A DNA stretch of 27,086 nt. Origin: a virus. Location: IMG/VR virus record IMGVR_UViG_3300035698_003366, positions 1 to 27,086 of that record; one strand, given 5' to 3'. The position numbers were made by a program, and so were the translations under genes. The notes under the pieces were generated by a model. It worked only from the letters and a program-made list of their open reading frames with translations. It made no database searches and was not told the origin of the DNA. Shown here piece after piece: positions 10,067-26,901 of the stretch (position 1 is the first letter of the stretch; the number at the start of each line of letters is the position of its first letter).

Positions 10067-13048
10067 ATGCAAGAAAACTTTTTTAGAACTACAATTGCAT
10101 ATAACAATTGGGAAAATAAATATCAATACAAAAATGAAACACCATTAGGAACATTCCAAAGAATTGCAAGAGAATTAGCTTCAAATGAAAAGAACCCGGA
10201 AAAATGGTATGATGTGTTTTTAAACACAATGATTAGATTTGACAAAGAGGGAAATCCCATTGGAATCAAATGCTCACCTGGTGGTAGAATAACAACTAAC
10301 ATTGGAACAGATTACCATAACGCAACCTTGATGAATTGTTTCATTAATGGACCTGTTCAAAATGCTAAGATATCATACATCAGAAAAAATGAACACTTTG
10401 AAAATAAAATTGAAATAAAAACTAAAGATACACCTGATGACCTTGTTAATATATTCTTGACAATACTGGAACAAGCAAAGACTCTTGCTTCTGAAGGTGG
10501 TTATGGATTAAACTTTGATTTCATACGTCCACGAGGCTCTATAATCAAAGGTACTGGTATTAGACATCCAGGTGTAATCGCTTACATGGAAGTCTGGGAT
10601 AAGGTCGCAAGCTGTATTGTCAATGGTGATAACGATGGATACCTTGACACATTGAAAGACCATACAACTAAAGAAGAACGTCTCAATTTCTTTGGTATCG
10701 TTGACAAAGAAACACGCAAAGGTGCAATGATGGGATGTCTCTCTATTGATCATCCTGATATTGAAGAATTCATTCGCGCAAAACAAGAATCTGGTAAGTT
10801 GACAAAATTCAATATGAGTGTTGCTGTAACAGATACATTCATGGTAGCTGTAGAAAAGAATGAAATGTGGGAATTAGTATGGGAAGGCAAAGTAGTAAAA
10901 AGAGTCAAGGCAAGACATCTCTATGACCTTATCATGAAATCTACATACCACCGTGCAGAACCCGGAATCCTTTTTGTTGACAACATGAATAAGAACAACC
11001 CTATATCATATCTTGGTGAATGCAACGCAACCAATCCATGTTTTTCAAAAGATATGTATTTATTTACAAAAGATGGTTGTCAAACATTTGAATATTATAA
11101 TAAACAAAACACACAATTGACATTATTACAAGATGGTCGTGTCGTTCTTCTTGATAATGAAAAAGAAATATTTGATCATCATGGGATTGAAACTGCCAAT
11201 TATATTGAATCAACATCTCCGGTTGAATTAACACAAGAGAATGTCGAAACATTAAAAATAACACTAAAATCCCATTTTATGCCTATAGTCGCAACACAAA
11301 ACCATAGATTTTTTACAGTTGATGGAGCAAAAAAGGCTAAAGATTTATTTGTAGGTGATAAAATATTATACACATTACAAGATTATCCAGAATTTATAAA
11401 TGATGAATTGGATGATTTGGCATTTTTATTAGGATTGATTGATGGTGATGGTTGTGTTGTAAACCAAATCAGTAATAAATATCTTGTGTGTATTGATTTG
11501 TGGGGTAATGATGTTGATAATATGCAAAATAAAATTATTAATATTATTGATACTTTATATAATAAATACGGAAAAAGTATATCTGAACACCAAAATAGAA
11601 AAATATCACCATATTATATAACAAAATATAAAAATAAAATACGTATTGGATCGTCATTTATTTATAGATTACTTGAATATGAATTTGGTTGGGAAAAAAG
11701 AAAAAAACACATACCAAATATATTTTTTGAAAACTCAAGAAAAAATAAATATGCCAAAAATTACATTGCTGGTTTATTTTTTGCTGATGGGCATGTAACT
11801 AAGCATAAACCATCAATCAGAATATCACAATCAGATGAATCATATTTAAAACAAATTGGTGTGTTGTTATCATCTATAGGTATTAAATCATCAATATTAA
11901 AAAGACGTGGTGCTGGAAAAAGAAAACTCCCGGATGGTGTTGGTGGTTATAAATATCACAATTGTAAATCGGATTATGAATTGGTTATGTATATGTCGGA
12001 ATTCAAATATTTTTATAATATAGTATCAGATATGTTTAAAAACCACAAAACTGATAGAATGGAATTAAATTTAAATACCAAGTCTAAAAGAAAAAATTAC
12101 ATTGTTGTTAAAAATATAGAAAAAGATGAAATTCAAAACGTTTACTGTATCAAAGAACCACAAAATAAAAATATTGTTGTTAATGGGTGTTCTGTTGCTC
12201 GGTGTGGTGAGATACCGGGCAATCCTGTGATGTCAACAGTATGTCTTCTTGGTTCTATTAACTTGACACAATATATTGAAATTTGTGATGGTGTTCCCTG
12301 TTTTAATTGGGAAATGTATAAAACTGACATTATGATGTTTTCAAGAATGCTTGACAGTGTCTGTGATCTTACAGAACTTCCTCTTCCATCGTATGCATGG
12401 GCTGTAAAGAATCTTAGACAGTTTGGTATGGGTGTAAATGGATTAGGTTCTGCATTGATTATGTTGGGTATTAAATACAATTCACCTGAAGCTGTTGAGT
12501 TTACAAAAAGAATAAAAGAATTAAAAGAAAATATCACAATGCAAACATCTGCATTACTTGCAAAAGAAAAGGGCGCTTTTCCTTTATTCAATTATGATGA
12601 GTTATCTAAAACTGAATATTTCAAATCAGAAAGATTAAATCCACAAACAAAAGAAATAATCAAAACATATGGTTTACGTAATGCTAAGACATCCACTAAT
12701 CCCCCTTTGGGAAATTGCGTTTCTCATAATACAATTATTCATACTGATAATGGAAATAAATCTTTAAAGGTGTTATTTGAAGAAAATTCTATTGATTATA
12801 AAAAATATGAAAATCAGTGGTTTGTTCCAATATCAAATTCTCAGGTATTAACACACACAAATAACTTTAAATATATAACAGGTTTGTTTGTTAAAGGAAA
12901 AACTAAAGGATTAGAAATCAAAACTGAAAGTGATATGATTATTGGTAAAAAAGACCACAAAATATTAGTTAAAATTGATGATGATAATGCAGAGTGGAAA
13001 TGTCTACATGAAGTGATGATTGGAGATATAATTTTATCAAATAAATAA
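10067..13048 (+). CDS. nrdJ: Class II ribonucleotide reductase, part 1 (two intein pieces)
   Basis: Encodes the N-terminal and central parts of an adenosylcobalamin-type ribonucleotide reductase, which makes deoxynucleotides. Class II features are GGRITTNIGT, ASEGGYGLNFDFIRPRGS, RKGAMMGCLSIDHPDIEEF and the catalytic NPCGEI motif (Asn, thiyl Cys, Glu). A 388-aa intein (residues 325-712) interrupts it exactly before the catalytic Cys. The C-terminal 110 residues are the N-half of a second, split intein that starts at Cys884. The host protein is completed by the gene at 13095. Without both splicing events the active site is not assembled. AAGGAAG precedes the ATG. Only Part 1 plus Part 2 without inteins has the length of a normal class II enzyme. 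Confidence 0.93.
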   Translation: MQENFFRTTIAYNNWENKYQYKNETPLGTFQRIARELASNEKNPEKWYDVFLNTMIRFDKEGNPIGIKCSPGGRITTNIGTDYHNATLMNCFINGPVQNAKISYIRKNEHFENKIEIKTKDTPDDLVNIFLTILEQAKTLASEGGYGLNFDFIRPRGSIIKGTGIRHPGVIAYMEVWDKVASCIVNGDNDGYLDTLKDHTTKEERLNFFGIVDKETRKGAMMGCLSIDHPDIEEFIRAKQESGKLTKFNMSVAVTDTFMVAVEKNEMWELVWEGKVVKRVKARHLYDLIMKSTYHRAEPGILFVDNMNKNNPISYLGECNATNPCFSKDMYLFTKDGCQTFEYYNKQNTQLTLLQDGRVVLLDNEKEIFDHHGIETANYIESTSPVELTQENVETLKITLKSHFMPIVATQNHRFFTVDGAKKAKDLFVGDKILYTLQDYPEFINDELDDLAFLLGLIDGDGCVVNQISNKYLVCIDLWGNDVDNMQNKIINIIDTLYNKYGKSISEHQNRKISPYYITKYKNKIRIGSSFIYRLLEYEFGWEKRKKHIPNIFFENSRKNKYAKNYIAGLFFADGHVTKHKPSIRISQSDESYLKQIGVLLSSIGIKSSILKRRGAGKRKLPDGVGGYKYHNCKSDYELVMYMSEFKYFYNIVSDMFKNHKTDRMELNLNTKSKRKNYIVVKNIEKDEIQNVYCIKEPQNKNIVVNGCSVARCGEIPGNPVMSTVCLLGSINLTQYIEICDGVPCFNWEMYKTDIMMFSRMLDSVCDLTELPLPSYAWAVKNLRQFGMGVNGLGSALIMLGIKYNSPEAVEFTKRIKELKENITMQTSALLAKEKGAFPLFNYDELSKTEYFKSERLNPQTKEIIKTYGLRNAKTSTNPPLGNCVSHNTIIHTDNGNKSLKVLFEENSIDYKKYENQWFVPISNSQVLTHTNNFKYITGLFVKGKTKGLEIKTESDMIIGKKDHKILVKIDDDNAEWKCLHEVMIGDIILSNK
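11039..12202 (+). other. Intein 1: LAGLIDADG intein with abnormal C-terminus
   Basis: In-frame 388-codon intein at NP|C of the NPCGEI motif. It starts with Cys (CFSKDMYLFTKDG, block A). Block B has TQNHRFFTVDG and VGDKIL. Two LAGLIDADG motifs are present (LLGLIDGDG near 11430 and IAGLFFADG near 11767), so it encodes a homing endonuclease. Block F is present (VYCIKEPQNKNIVVNG). The last residues are CSVAR before the extein Cys, where a functional intein should end in His-Asn. The Asn needed for C-terminal cleavage is therefore missing. Confidence 0.9.
12716..13045 (+). other. Split intein 2, N-terminal half (IntN)
   Basis: 110 codons starting with Cys (CVSHNTIIHTDNGNKSL, block A) directly after the extein sequence TSTNPPLGN. 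Block B is seen as KKDHKILVKID, followed by LHEVMIGDIIL. The reading frame then stops (TAA 13046-13048). There is no endonuclease domain. The partner half is at 13095-13226. Confidence 0.92.
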
Positions 13049-13094
13049 ACAAGATATTGTAAATAAATGTGTTGATTTTTTAAAGGGGATATAA

Positions 13095-13226
13095 ATGAAA
13101 ATAAATATAAATGATTATAAATGTGAACCCGTTGTTGGTATAAATATTGTTGACGATTTTATGTTGGATATTGAAGTTGCAGATGACCACTCATATATTG
13201 TTAATAATGGTATAATATCTCATAAT
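13095..13226 (+). other. Split intein 2, C-terminal half (IntC)
   Basis: 44 codons: a short basic/acidic lead, then block F (VVDDFMLDIEVADDHSYIV is the recognisable pattern, with small differences) and block G NNGIISHN, followed by extein Ser as the +1 nucleophile. All catalytic positions expected of a working C-intein are present. Confidence 0.93.
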
Positions 13227-14291
13227 TCTTCTGTTGTTTGTGATAATGTAAGTAATGGTATTGAGCCAGTATTTGATTTAGAATCCACACGCAAAGTTAT
13301 CTGTCCATTTCCTGAAGGATTGAATTCAGAAAATGTAAAAGAAATACTCAAAGAAAAAAAGAAAAAAGATTTTACATATTGGGAAGGTGAATATGGAAGT
13401 ACGAAATATTATTACGAACCTCATAATAGAGGTCTCTGTGAGGTATACACTCTTCGTGATTATGGTTATCAGTGGATTCTTGACAATTTCCCTGAAAATA
13501 AAAAAGCTGATTTCTTGGTTACTACATCTGATTTAGATATCCAAGACCATCTTAACATTCAGGAAGTTGTACAATTCTATTGTAATCAATCTGTAAGTAA
13601 AACAATAAATCTTCCAAATAAATATTCATTTGAAAAATTCAAAGAACTTTATGTTGAAGCATGGAAACGTGGATTGATTGGCGTTACTACTTATCGCACA
13701 GGGTCAATGGAAGCAGTTATGGAAAAACTTGAGAATGCTGATGAGAAGAATGAAATTATAAAGAAGGGTGTTAAATTACCAGACACATTTGTAAATGGCC
13801 CAACAAAAACTATCAAACGTGAAGGTATGAAATTCTATATTCATTTTAGTTTTCTTCCTGAAGATATAGAAATGAAATACCCAATTGCTATGTGGATAAA
13901 TACAAACAATAAAACTGACGTGAGAGTATCAACAAAGGCATGTAAGAAACTTAGTAAACTTGCAGTTGACTGTGGTTTATCATTGAAAATTGTTGAAGAT
14001 ACGTGGGATAAATGTCTTGGTGATAGTGCTTCGAATAGACTTGCGAGAATGGTTAGTTTGTGTCTAAGACACAACATCCCATGTCAAGATATTCTTGTTG
14101 CGTTGAGAGATATCAATGGTGACAATGTTAGTACATTGTTGACCGCAGTTAGAAAATTTATTGGAGAAACCATCGACAATGGTACACAAATCGTTGGTGT
14201 GCAATGTCCAGAATGTCAAAGCGATAGCCTTGAAATGCAATCTGGATGTTTCGTATGTAAAGATTGTGGTCATTCAGGATGTGGTGCTTAA
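13095..14291 (+). CDS. nrdJ: Class II ribonucleotide reductase, part 2 (IntC + C-terminal extein)
   Basis: Separate cistron with its own ribosome site (AAAGGGGATATAAATG), 46 bases after the stop of part 1. It has 398 aa. The first 44 residues are the C-half of a split intein, ending in the canonical His-Asn before Ser. The extein continues SSVVCDNVSNGIEPVF, which joins the upstream TSTNPPLGN to rebuild the substrate phosphate-binding loop of ribonucleotide reductase. The extein C-terminus carries the class II redox-Cys/zinc-ribbon region (CPECQSDSL...GCFVCKDCGHSGCG). Protein trans-splicing with the product of 10067-13048 should give the full enzyme. The extein supply (dNTPs) fits thyX, dut and the dNMP kinase nearby. 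Confidence 0.93.
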   Translation: MKININDYKCEPVVGINIVDDFMLDIEVADDHSYIVNNGIISHNSSVVCDNVSNGIEPVFDLESTRKVICPFPEGLNSENVKEILKEKKKKDFTYWEGEYGSTKYYYEPHNRGLCEVYTLRDYGYQWILDNFPENKKADFLVTTSDLDIQDHLNIQEVVQFYCNQSVSKTINLPNKYSFEKFKELYVEAWKRGLIGVTTYRTGSMEAVMEKLENADEKNEIIKKGVKLPDTFVNGPTKTIKREGMKFYIHFSFLPEDIEMKYPIAMWINTNNKTDVRVSTKACKKLSKLAVDCGLSLKIVEDTWDKCLGDSASNRLARMVSLCLRHNIPCQDILVALRDINGDNVSTLLTAVRKFIGETIDNGTQIVGVQCPECQSDSLEMQSGCFVCKDCGHSGCGA

Positions 14292-25594: not shown

Positions 25595-25610
25595 ACCAAT
25601 TTAAACTGCA

Positions 25611-25640
25611 ATTGAAGATTAATTTCAGCAAACAACCAAA
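25611..25640 (+). repeat. Leader motif copy 1
   Basis: TTGAAGATTAATTTCAGC then AAACAACCAAA, directly before tRNA-like unit 1. AGATTAAT (25616-25623) is perfectly complementary to ATTAATCT at 25698-25705. Confidence 0.65.
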
Positions 25641-25702
25641 TGCTAATGGTTAGCAATCAATCTACGAAATTGACCTTTCCGGTTCAAATCCGGGTATATT
25701 AA
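25641..25702 (+). tRNA. tRNA-Arg(ACG)-like unit without matched 5' acceptor
   Basis: D-arm TGCT/AGCA with loop AATGGTT. Anticodon arm TCAAT/ATTGA with loop CTACGAA (anticodon ACG, Arg). T-arm TCCGG/CCGGG with loop TTCAAAT. The 3' acceptor strand TATATTA follows, but the bases where the 5' acceptor strand should be belong to leader motif 1 and do not pair with it. The unit is flanked by leader copy 1 and trailer copy a like the permuted genes. Either its 5' acceptor strand is supplied from elsewhere, or it is a damaged gene. No CCA is encoded. Confidence 0.55.
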
Positions 25703-25706
25703 TCTG
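25698..25706 (+). repeat. Trailer motif copy a
   Basis: ATTAATCTG, complementary over 8 bases to leader copy 1. Confidence 0.6.
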
Positions 25707-25720
25707 TATTGTAATTATTT

Positions 25721-25832
25721 TATGGGGCATAACAATCAAGGGCGGTGCAGCTTTGCAAGCAGTTTTTTGTGTGGTTAACCTAATGTGTCATTAAAGCTAA
25801 ATGCAACTCTTTGTCCGTGGGATTGTTTATCC
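25721..25832 (+). ncRNA. Structured RNA of unknown family
   Basis: About 110 bases with nested complementarity: AACAATC (25731-25737) with GATTGTT (25821-25827). GCA-GCTTT (25747-25754) with AAAGC-(bulge)-TGC (25793-25804). An inner hairpin TAATG/CATTA (25781-25793). No T-loop, no group I core motif and no start codon with a ribosome site are seen. It lies between tRNA-like unit 1 and permuted unit 2. Confidence 0.35.
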
Positions 25833-25878
25833 GATTAAAATCTAATCTCCCCTTTATTTGTAAACTATATTGAATGAT

Positions 25879-25904
25879 TTTGAAGATTGTCTACAGCAAC
25901 CAAA
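25879..25904 (+). repeat. Leader motif copy 2
   Basis: TTTGAAGATTGTCTACAGC then AACCAAA. AGATTGT (25884-25890) pairs with ACAATCT at 26000-26006. Confidence 0.7.
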
Positions 25905-25988
25905 AACTAATTCGAGCAATGTGTCATGGGTTCGAATCCCGTCTCTCGCTTTATTGTGCGGGAGTAGCTCAGTTGGCAGAGCAATCGC
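25905..25988 (+). tRNA. Circularly permuted tRNA, Gly-like
   Basis: Order is 3' half, then 5' half. 3' half: candidate anticodon-stem strand GCAAT (25916-25920), variable GTGTC, T-arm ATGGG/CCCGT with loop TTCGAAT, acceptor strand CTCTCGC (25943-25949), discriminator T. A 7-base linker TTATTGT follows. 5' half: acceptor GCGGGAG (25958-25964), TA, D-arm GCTC/GAGC with loop AGTTGGCA, A, then ATCGC. The acceptor pairs in all seven positions (one G-U). The halves resemble tRNA-Gly. The anticodon is uncertain: ATCGC with GCAAT has one C-A mismatch, and joining within the shared CTAA gives an odd loop. No CCA is encoded. Confidence 0.72.
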
Positions 25989-25999
25989 TAAAAGTATGT

Positions 26000-26008
26000 A
26001 CAATCTGT
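26000..26008 (+). repeat. Trailer motif copy b
   Basis: ACAATCTGT, pairs with leader copy 2; the changed bases relative to other copies keep the pairing. Preceded by TAAAAGTA after the 5' half. Confidence 0.7.
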
Positions 26009-26072
26009 AAATCATTCTATTTAGTTTATTAATCAACAGAAGTTTATAACTTAATTGAAAGGTATCGTAATA

Positions 26073-26138
26073 ATGGGTGAATCTATTACAACACCAGTAG
26101 GACAAACAAAAAACTCAATCTGGAACGGATGTGCTTAA
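26073..26138 (+). CDS. Possible 21-aa peptide
   Basis: MGESITTPVGQTKNSIWNGCA (21 residues with the Met), preceded by AAAGG at a fair distance. Its end overlaps the tRNA 5'-half-like sequence at 26122, so it may be chance. No bacteriocin or tag family is recognised. Confidence 0.25.
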   Translation: MGESITTPVGQTKNSIWNGCA

Positions 26139-26152
26139 TGGTTGAGCAAACC
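26122..26152 (+). tRNA. tRNA 5'-half-like fragment
   Basis: GGAACGGATG followed by a D-arm (TGCT/AGCA or GCTT/GAGC, loop containing ATGG), AAACC, then trailer copy c. It resembles a tRNA 5' half, but no 3' half with a matching acceptor strand is found nearby. Confidence 0.45.
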
Positions 26153-26162
26153 ATTTAATCTG
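26153..26162 (+). repeat. Trailer motif copy c
   Basis: ATTTAATCTG. Nine bases (26153-26161) are perfectly complementary to leader copy 3 (AGATTAAAT, 26198-26206), with about 36 bases between them. Confidence 0.65.
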
Positions 26163-26192
26163 TAAACTATTTTTATAAAATCATAAAGAGAT

Positions 26193-26222
26193 TCTGAAGA
26201 TTAAATTCAGCAATCAAAAAAA
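26193..26222 (+). repeat. Leader motif copy 3
   Basis: TTCTGAAGATTAAATTCAGC then AATCAAAAAAA, directly before the 3' half of the permuted tRNA-Ile. Pairs with trailer copy d (7 bp) or copy c (9 bp). Confidence 0.7.
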
Positions 26223-26326
26223 GCACTGATAATGCCGTGGTTGGGGGTTCGAGTCCCTCTCTCCCTGCTCTGGTGTCTTTCGGGGTGTCAAAGCAGGGAG
26301 ATAGCTCAACTGAATGGCAGAGCACG
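26223..26326 (+). tRNA. Circularly permuted tRNA-Ile(GAT)
   Basis: 3' half first: GCA, anticodon loop CTGATAA (anticodon GAT), TGCCG, variable TGGTT, T-arm GGGGG/CCCTC with loop TTCGAGT, acceptor strand TCTCCCT (26260-26266), G. After a linker of about 28 bases comes the 5' half: acceptor AGGGAGA (26295-26301), TA, D-arm GCTC/GAGC with loop AACTGAATGGCA, A, CG (26325-26326). The acceptor stem is seven perfect pairs and extends three more (AGC/GCT) into the linker. Joining CG to GCA rebuilds a perfect five-pair anticodon stem (CGGCA/TGCCG), placing the break between positions 28 and 29. No CCA is encoded. Confidence 0.82.
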
Positions 26327-26333
26327 TAAAGTA

Positions 26334-26342
26334 TTAATCTGT
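26334..26342 (+). repeat. Trailer motif copy d
   Basis: TTAATCTGT after TAAAGTA at the end of the permuted tRNA-Ile 5' half. TTAATCT pairs with AGATTAA of leader copy 3. Confidence 0.7.
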
Positions 26343-26354
26343 GAATCTCTTTTA

Positions 26355-26399
26355 TATGGACAGGTAACTTAATTGGTAGAGTACCACATATGCTACCAA
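26355..26399 (+). other. tRNA 5'-half-like fragment and hairpin
   Basis: ATGGACAGG, TA, ACTT/GAGT D-arm with loop AATTGGTA, then ACC: a tRNA 5' half in form. The same bases also make a 7-bp hairpin TTGGTAG/CTACCAA (26373-26399). ATGGACAGG is complementary over 9 bases to CCTGTCCAT at 26890-26898. Confidence 0.45.
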
Positions 26400-26416
26400 A
26401 AGTAAATAAGAATTTT

Positions 26417-26837: not shown

Positions 26838-26901
26838 CTTCGGTGGCACAGTCGGATACCTACTCATATCAACATTGCAGGTATCAAATCCTGTCCATTC
26901 A
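26838..26901 (+). other. tRNA-like remnant
   Basis: GGTGGCACAGTCGG resembles a D-arm. GATACC (26855-26860) pairs with GGTATC (26880-26885). CAGG/CCTG around TATCAAAT resembles a T-arm with an 8-base loop. The 3' strand CCTGTCCAT is complementary to 26355-26363. No canonical tRNA can be built from it alone. Confidence 0.35.

Follow-up and report, generated by a model that had tools for sequence, protein, structure and literature searches.

A covarying RNA core with tRNA-like cargo in the tRNA array of a T4-like virus contig closely resembles Dictyostelium Class I RNA

The window analyzed here is the whole of the virus record IMGVR_UViG_3300035698_003366, a contig of 27,086 nt with T4-like genes, among them those for DNA polymerase B, RecA, the clamp loader, head closure, ribonucleotide reductase with an intein, and ThyX. 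ARAGORN found no intact tRNA in the whole 27-kb contig. The right end of the window carries three units and one remnant (copy c), in which a conserved RNA core encloses tRNA-like sequence, referred to as cargo. Each unit has the layout P1 - UGA - AGAUUNN - nUn - CAGCAA - cargo - NNAAUCU - GU - P1'. The units and their parts are the following.

25604..25716, + strand: unit 1, core with tRNA-like cargo in normal order and without an acceptor stem (scans and direct reading)
25607-25612, 25613-25615, 25616-25623 and 25626-25631, + strand: P1 5' strand, UGA, P2 and CAGCAA of unit 1
25698-25705, 25706-25707 and from 25708, + strand: P2', GU and P1' of unit 1
25641..25694, + strand: unit 1 cargo, with D arm (25641-25655), anticodon arm (25657-25673) and T arm (25678-25694)
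25872..26017, + strand: unit 2, core with permuted T arm - acceptor - D arm cargo (scans, a sub-threshold YrlA match of 31.3 bits, orthologues)
25872-25880, 25881-25883, 25884-25890 and 25894-25899, + strand: P1, UGA, P2 and CAGCAA of unit 2
26000-26006, 26007-26008 and 26009-26017, + strand: P2', GU and P1' of unit 2
25926..25982, + strand: unit 2 cargo without a usable anticodon, with T arm (25926-25942) and D arm (25967-25982)
25943-25949 and 25958-25964, + strand: acceptor strands CTCTCGC and GCGGGAG of unit 2
26132..26172, + strand: copy c, a remnant with D arm (26132-26148), P2' and GU (26155-26163) and P1' strand; the leader half is gone
26186..26351, + strand: unit 3, core with permuted tRNA-Ile(GAU)-like cargo (scans, a sub-threshold YrlA match of 34.2 bits)
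26186-26194, 26195-26197, 26198-26204 and 26208-26213, + strand: P1, UGA, P2 and CAGCAA of unit 3
26334-26340, 26341-26342 and 26343-26351, + strand: P2', GU and P1' of unit 3
26223..26326, + strand: unit 3 cargo, beginning with GCA CTGATAA TGCCG (26223-26237) and T arm (26243-26259)
26260-26301, 26304-26323 and 26324-26326, + strand: acceptor/linker, D arm and ACG of the unit 3 cargo

A first-pass annotation of this region had described three similar leaders and four similar trailers, complementary to each other, around every permuted unit. The leaders were confirmed at positions 25613 (TGAAGATTAATTTCAGCAA), 25881 (TGAAGATTGTCTACAGCAA) and 26195 (TGAAGATTAAATTCAGCAA), and the trailers, which end in AATCTGT, with their last base at 25707, 26008, 26163 (the leaderless copy c) and 26342. 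The complementarity is more extensive than had been claimed, since the UGA/GU loop is conserved as well and an outer stem is added. The core consists of the variable outer stem P1, the UGA/GU internal loop and the 7-bp stem P2 (AGAUUNN), followed by UNCAGCAA and then by the cargo. P1 is formed by TGCAAT/ATTGTA in unit 1, by GAATGATTT/AAATCATTC in unit 2 and by AAAGAGATTC/GAATCTCTTT in unit 3. Not every unit is permuted: unit 1 (leader at 25613) has the normal order of D arm, anticodon arm and T arm. Its anticodon arm, as found by reading the sequence and by an anticodon-arm scan, is TCAAT CTACGAA ATTGA with the anticodon ACG. The covariance model R1 scored 53.9 bits on unit 1 (E 1.9e-10), unit 1 itself being a sequence from which the model was built. 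The fold of unit 3 had a z-score of -3.22, and none of 200 shuffled sequences was equally stable. Joining of 26326 to 26223 in unit 3 results in a canonical tRNA-Ile(GAU). Copy c lost its leader through a deletion that fused the remnant to the upstream open reading frame, as judged against the intact homologues L049:5290 and L312:1125. At 26050-26165 the start of a gene encoding ITTPVGQTKN is joined by this deletion to the 3' part of the unit.

The covariation between leader and trailer, first noticed within the window, was strong across homologues. In an alignment of 27 units from six phage contigs, which were partly chosen by a pairing filter, 96.1% of the pair cells were standard pairs and 14 of the 16 pairs had changed on both sides. 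The covariation score was 0.804 compared to 0.193 after shuffling (the observed value was reached in 0 of 500 shuffles) and to at most 0.156 for slid partners. Within P2, five of seven pairs had changed on both sides, with 98.9% of the cells paired. AAG and UG were invariant in 27/27 units and the final U was present in 26/27; C was found in 23/27 and was replaced by U, allowing G-U pairing, in the other four. CAGCAA and one U were also invariant. A less biased check is the set selected by pattern only: in seven phage contigs the pattern TGAAGNNTNNNNNCAGCAA had 25 forward matches and no match with the reversed-pattern control. All 25 were on the sense strand of tRNAs and within tRNA arrays, and a matching trailer and outer stem were present in all 24 that were not cut by a contig end. 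We concluded that leader and trailer together form a conserved RNA structure, which covaries and is present in other phages.

A pattern scan of IMG/VR revealed seven more copies in the 30-kb contig G001 and others in the 224-kb phage G002, and further pattern scans added L117, L132 and L312. Matches of model R1 across G002, where not all first-look candidates were scored, were found solely inside the tRNA array, and in the searched members of the group the core is restricted to such arrays. Swapping of the flanks between units reduced P1 in the phage group of the window from 7.96 to 2.85 Watson-Crick pairs. The corresponding values for other phages were 3.06 and 2.84, and P1 is absent there. 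The core without P1 was found in many other phages, among them cultured KVP40-like Vibrio phages. A BLAST search of the leader against cultured phages had returned only chance 17-mers; core-bearing cultured phages were reached later through relatives. A search with one phage protein led to a single close relative, which has no units. Two exact pattern matches in cellular genomes both lacked the trailer and were regarded as chance.

The cargo was always tRNA-like: an anticodon stem-loop, a T-acceptor-D elbow or a complete tRNA, the parts of which stand in either normal or permuted order. Hairpin-type units hold one small hairpin. Some of the unit classes were assigned by eye with support from a script. 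A permuted elbow without anticodon is present at L049:3207, L049:5290, L132:8792 and L312:1125, while normal-order tRNA cargo is present in unit 1 of the window, L018:3391 and L005:3940. Permuted tRNAs that have a canonical anticodon arm once joined are unit 3 of the window (Ile-GAU) and units of G002 (Gly-UCC), L132 (Val-AAC) and L018:4768 (Leu-UAA). For the hairpin-type units we counted a hairpin as anticodon-like if its stem had 4 bp or more and its 7-nt loop was of the canonical anticodon type (U33, R37, A38). This applied to 7 of 11 units in a first set, compared to 0.69 expected (0/2000 shuffles), and to 7 of 14 units, compared to 0.41 expected (0/3000), in a second set picked by core structure regardless of cargo. 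The loops CUUUUAA, CUGUAAA, CUUGUAA and CUGAUAA were recurrent. Most units lack either the anticodon or everything else of a tRNA. A long unit at L018:551 and on the minus strand of L005 at 5430, putatively class II tRNA-like, carries an insert, TTTACTTGGTTCAA..GACAAATAGC..GGAG..GCTTAAATAACT..GACTTTAAATC, which is conserved between these two distant phages.

The core was compared to the Class I RNAs of Dictyostelium. These RNAs have AAG at the 5' end, CUGU at the 3' end, a 6-bp stem of variable sequence with a fixed G-C pair, an 11-nt motif beside the 5' strand (CCUUACAGCAA in D. discoideum), a variable remainder and a length of about 60 nt, and none has been reported outside the Dictyostelia (Kjellin et al., PMC7919456). 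The phage core has the same AAG/CUGU ends, a variable stem with a fixed G-C pair, a motif ending in CAGCAA and a variable rest, and it also occurs at about 60 nt and in many copies per genome. The median core length of hairpin-type phage units is 60 nt; units with a tRNA are longer. The 11-nt motif is found as a whole (CUUACAGCAA) in few phage units (e.g., G003), and the spacer before CAGCAA is usually 3 nt in phages and 4 nt in Class I RNAs. The phage units further differ in that they lie in tRNA arrays of T4-like phages and not in amoebae, carry tRNA-like cargo, have P1 in one phage group, and in that the core also occurs circularly permuted inside tRNAs. Class I RNAs of Dictyostelium have a DUSE promoter about 60 nt upstream, are bound by the RRM protein Rnp1A, and are stable and unspliced, with the same core as their terminal part.

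Hairpin-type units were scored against the Rfam model RF01414 (Dicty_Class_I_RNA). The best match reached 38.2 bits with E 1.1e-5 (611 bases, all families); the E values per record were 1.3e-7 for this match and 2.5e-6, 4.2e-6 and 9.5e-6 for others at units. Two of the shared features, the AA preceding the G and the terminal U, fall outside the Rfam model and represent additional agreement. Among records selected by a scan for the P1-less core, 6 of 10 candidates matched RF01414 (E down to 4e-6), compared to 1 of 10 comparison records (E 0.01). A 735-kb phage had four further RF01414 matches (E 5.9e-6), and two cultured Vibrio phages, V05 (E 3.8e-4) and VH7D (E 4.3e-5), had one each; the match in V05 lies directly 3' of an annotated tRNA-Trp. 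By its sequence features the phage core closely resembles Class I RNA, while formal membership in RF01414 is not claimed.

A second comparison was made with YrlA RNAs, in which an Rsr-binding stem carries a mimic of tRNA composed of D, T and acceptor arms (PMC8394870). Units 2 and 3 and their relatives share with YrlA a long stem that closes a permuted T arm - acceptor - D arm and the location in phage tRNA arrays. The permuted elbow cargo matched YrlA (RF02553) in six units with 31-43 bits, below the gathering threshold of 69. The phage units differ from YrlA by the lack of a Ro60 gene, by a different conserved core and by the numerous units in each phage that hold other cargo. A Ro60-binding Y RNA was rejected, since seven searched records had no TROVE match. 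By eye, the lower stem does not contain the CGA/UUGA motif of the RNA from the Ro60 phage, and model R1 found nothing in the Streptomyces phage SparkleGoddess or in RcXuper. It was a BLAST search with unit 2 that pointed to SparkleGoddess, whose tRNA array contains a YrlA-like RNA missing from the annotation (L319:2473-2587); a Ro60-like gene follows about 2 kb downstream.

The first-pass annotation had proposed that the paired ends serve the joining of tRNA halves, and this proposal was supported in part. Removal of the core from unit 3 results in a perfect tRNA-Ile(GAU) anticodon arm (ACG^GCA CTGATAA TGCCG), and ARAGORN recognized the joined form. As a general function, joining was not supported: no sensible anticodon arises from unit 2 or from two of the three orthologues of this unit, several units lack an anticodon arm, and many hold only an anticodon-like hairpin or a tRNA in normal order. 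The orthologues of unit 2 are L049:4083, L312:3864 and, in G002, L050:15773. The ITTPVGQTKN gene follows the unit in three of the four cases, and orthology in G002 is based on the conserved P1 and cargo. Compensatory changes are seen in P1 (GAATGATTT/AAATCATTC versus GAGTGATTT/AAATCACTC) and in the acceptor (GCGGGAG/CTCTCGC versus GCAGGGG/CCCCTGC versus ACGGGGA/TCCTTGT). A Gly anticodon is kept in the G002 orthologue only, and the other three, when joined, have an unassigned or altered anticodon. Because the unit 2 orthologues keep acceptor and P1 pairing and yet lose the anticodon, this group counts against joining as the general purpose.

In KVP40-like Vibrio phages the core takes an inside-out form, in which CUGU abuts AAG (stem-C-UG(U/A)NAA-G-stem and then C(A/U)GCA(A)), and it interrupts the anticodon arm of tRNAs whose parts are in normal order. 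Three such genes are tRNA-Pseudo-3, -4 and -5 of the KVP40 record, which is silent on the inserted core. They are probably normal-order members of the family that were annotated merely as pseudogenes. Homologues of the region were found in 55 records, nearly all from Vibrio phages, and the interrupted genes are kept in about 50 Vibrio phages.

L513:5540-6340 and L513:7878-7993, and KVP40 L521 and L529: interrupted Vibrio genes, which give canonical tRNAs after removal of the core (39-49 nt)

Excision of the core in normal order restores tRNA-Pro, Glu, Ala, Tyr and Asn (Vibrio phage V05) and Met (L155), and in permuted order Ile (unit 3 of the window), Gly, Val and Leu. ARAGORN recognized 10 of 10 joined forms as tRNA and none of the six normal-order forms before joining. 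Insertion at position 28/29 recurs (ACG^ATC, ACG^TGC and, in unit 3, ACG^GCA), and the restored anticodon arms with this recurrent site are the best evidence for an intron-like action. Among the Vibrio orthologues the frame of the anticodon arm and the tRNA body are nearly unchanged, but the anticodon differs (UUC/UCU, AGG/UAG), which is odd for decoding tRNAs. The anticodon assignment is ambiguous for Vibrio T3 and some D479 and F86 genes. At L480:3183 the order is D arm - core - T arm, and the anticodon arm is missing.

The arrangement shares reversed tRNA halves, pairing flanks and insertion into the anticodon arm with tRNA genes that are permuted or contain introns (Cyanidioschyzon type; phage group I introns). 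In this comparison, which partly draws on general knowledge, the phage units differ by having neither a bulge-helix-bulge substrate nor a group I core, by frequent insertion at 28/29 and not in the loop, and by the many units that cannot give a tRNA. That no group I intron is involved, as already suggested by the first-pass annotation, agrees with the lack of a group I match in Rfam on the window and of space for one. Group II introns likewise had no Rfam match, and 40-50 nt are too short for a group I catalytic core. Known small self-cleaving ribozymes gave no Rfam match. The UGA/GU loop was also set against the presumed layouts of the hammerhead, twister, hairpin and pistol ribozymes, and this reading was rejected. 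Assembly in trans, in which the anticodon hairpin of one unit would complete the elbow of another, was discarded since the unit numbers do not match. An RtcB-type RNA ligase is encoded by the 224-kb phage G002 (C1:114404-115531; L315, L316; E 6e-86). It is compatible with joining but proves nothing, and nothing in our analysis demonstrates cutting, ligation or a catalyst.

The explanation that we favor, with slightly better than even confidence, is a family of phage noncoding RNAs in which the AAG...CUGU core is grafted on tRNA parts, so that the units would be modular tRNA mimics with a putative decoy function. Phages most likely use the core for tRNA look-alikes rather than for the splicing of halves. 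The core is a stem with fixed AAG...CUGU ends and with UNCAGCAA single-stranded beside the 5' strand, closed in addition by P1 in the phage group of the window. The RNA would be co-transcribed with the tRNA array, P1 may aid its release near the AAG/CUGU ends, and the core may then serve as a handle, to be bound by a protein or to stabilize the RNA. The cargo would imitate tRNAs, most plausibly as decoy or tether for tRNA-recognizing host enzymes, e.g., anticodon nucleases. An anti-nuclease role is plausible, because tRNAs encoded by phages are known to escape anticodon nucleases, AriB of PARIS among them (PMC11455837). The chain would end at the core in the window type and the Class I type or at the acceptor in the Vibrio type, and one hypothesis could span all forms. 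Several points weigh against the mimic interpretation. No partner protein was identified: no Ro60/TROVE match was present in seven records including the 224-kb G002, and no RRM gene for a partner of the Rnp1A type was present in the phage contigs, so that an RRM partner as in Dictyostelium was rejected. Every RF01414 score was below the gathering cut-off of 41.5 bits. Finally, about ten units restore canonical tRNAs on removal of the core, which a pure mimic need not do.

These ten tRNAs, all recognized by ARAGORN when joined, together with the conservation of the interrupted genes in about 50 Vibrio phages despite the pseudo-tRNA label in KVP40 and the RtcB of G002, speak for the core being an intron of 40-50 nt in the anticodon arm of phage tRNAs, often at 28/29 and in normal or permuted order, with removal and joining done by the RNA itself or by proteins such as RtcB; this generalizes the idea of the first-pass annotation. 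As a general explanation we consider this rather unlikely: many units hold no tRNA to restore (hairpin-only units, unit 2 and the elbows L049:3207, L049:5290, L132:8792 and L480:3183), the anticodon changes among orthologues, the core falls short of the size of known self-splicing introns and has no Rfam intron match, and in Dictyostelium the core is retained in the mature RNA. It could hold additionally for the subset with intact anticodon arms. Quite improbable is the stronger version, in which AAG/CUGU and CAGCAA make up a minimal splicing element, perhaps itself a catalytic RNA, that would cut itself out of normal or permuted phage tRNAs and join the two sides of the anticodon arm, with Class I RNAs belonging to the same class. 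A bacterial Y RNA in the strict sense, whose stem binds Ro60/Rsr while the elbow mimics a tRNA, would account for the sub-threshold YrlA matches and for the comparably scoring RNA in the tRNA array of a Ro60-bearing Streptomyces phage. It is very unlikely in view of the lack of a TROVE gene in any contig, the differing lower stem, the blank R1 searches in SparkleGoddess and RcXuper and the absence of the elbow from most units of other phages. The rearranged array of the window, with no intact tRNA, a fused copy c and damaged anticodons, might suggest decaying tRNA genes, pseudogenes from recombination of the array with chance flanks. This is highly improbable and largely refuted because the core covaries strongly over many phages; the 25:0 ratio of forward to control matches and the conserved Vibrio genes also argue against it.

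A separate question is whether the agreement with Class I RNA reflects shared ancestry or convergence; both may be considered. It is possible, though we would not expect it, that a short AAG/CUGU stem with CAGCAA arose twice and that the role of the phage RNA is unrelated. About 14 conserved residues are shared, RF01414 scores stay below the cut-off, the organisms belong to different domains of life, no RRM partner was found, and no DUSE promoter is known here, although it was not searched for. On the other side, ends, motif, stem and length agree together in many independent phages. Convergence concerns ancestry and is compatible with the mimic explanation. The presence of this core, with identical fixed ends and attached to tRNA parts, in many bacteriophages would revise the picture of a dictyostelid-only RNA, which had been tied to the origin of dictyostelid multicellularity, and would suggest a tRNA-related function. 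The pseudo-tRNAs of KVP40 also gain a concrete reading, and since this phage can be grown in the laboratory, the choice between splicing and mimicry is directly testable.

Further broken tRNAs of the array are located at 26358-26400 and 26880-26900 of the window. In two relatives, L044:6794-6960 and L312, the ITTPVGQTKN gene is interrupted at differing positions by in-frame TGA/TAA codons, pointing to either decay or stop-codon recoding. Genes for tmRNA were seen in phage tRNA arrays of the Rhodobacter phage RcXuper (L320:2035-2451, permuted/alpha type) and of L117 (884-1258, standard type). At 10067-14291 of the window, the large subunit of ribonucleotide reductase is split by an intein with a LAGLIDADG domain and resumes in a second open reading frame at 13095.
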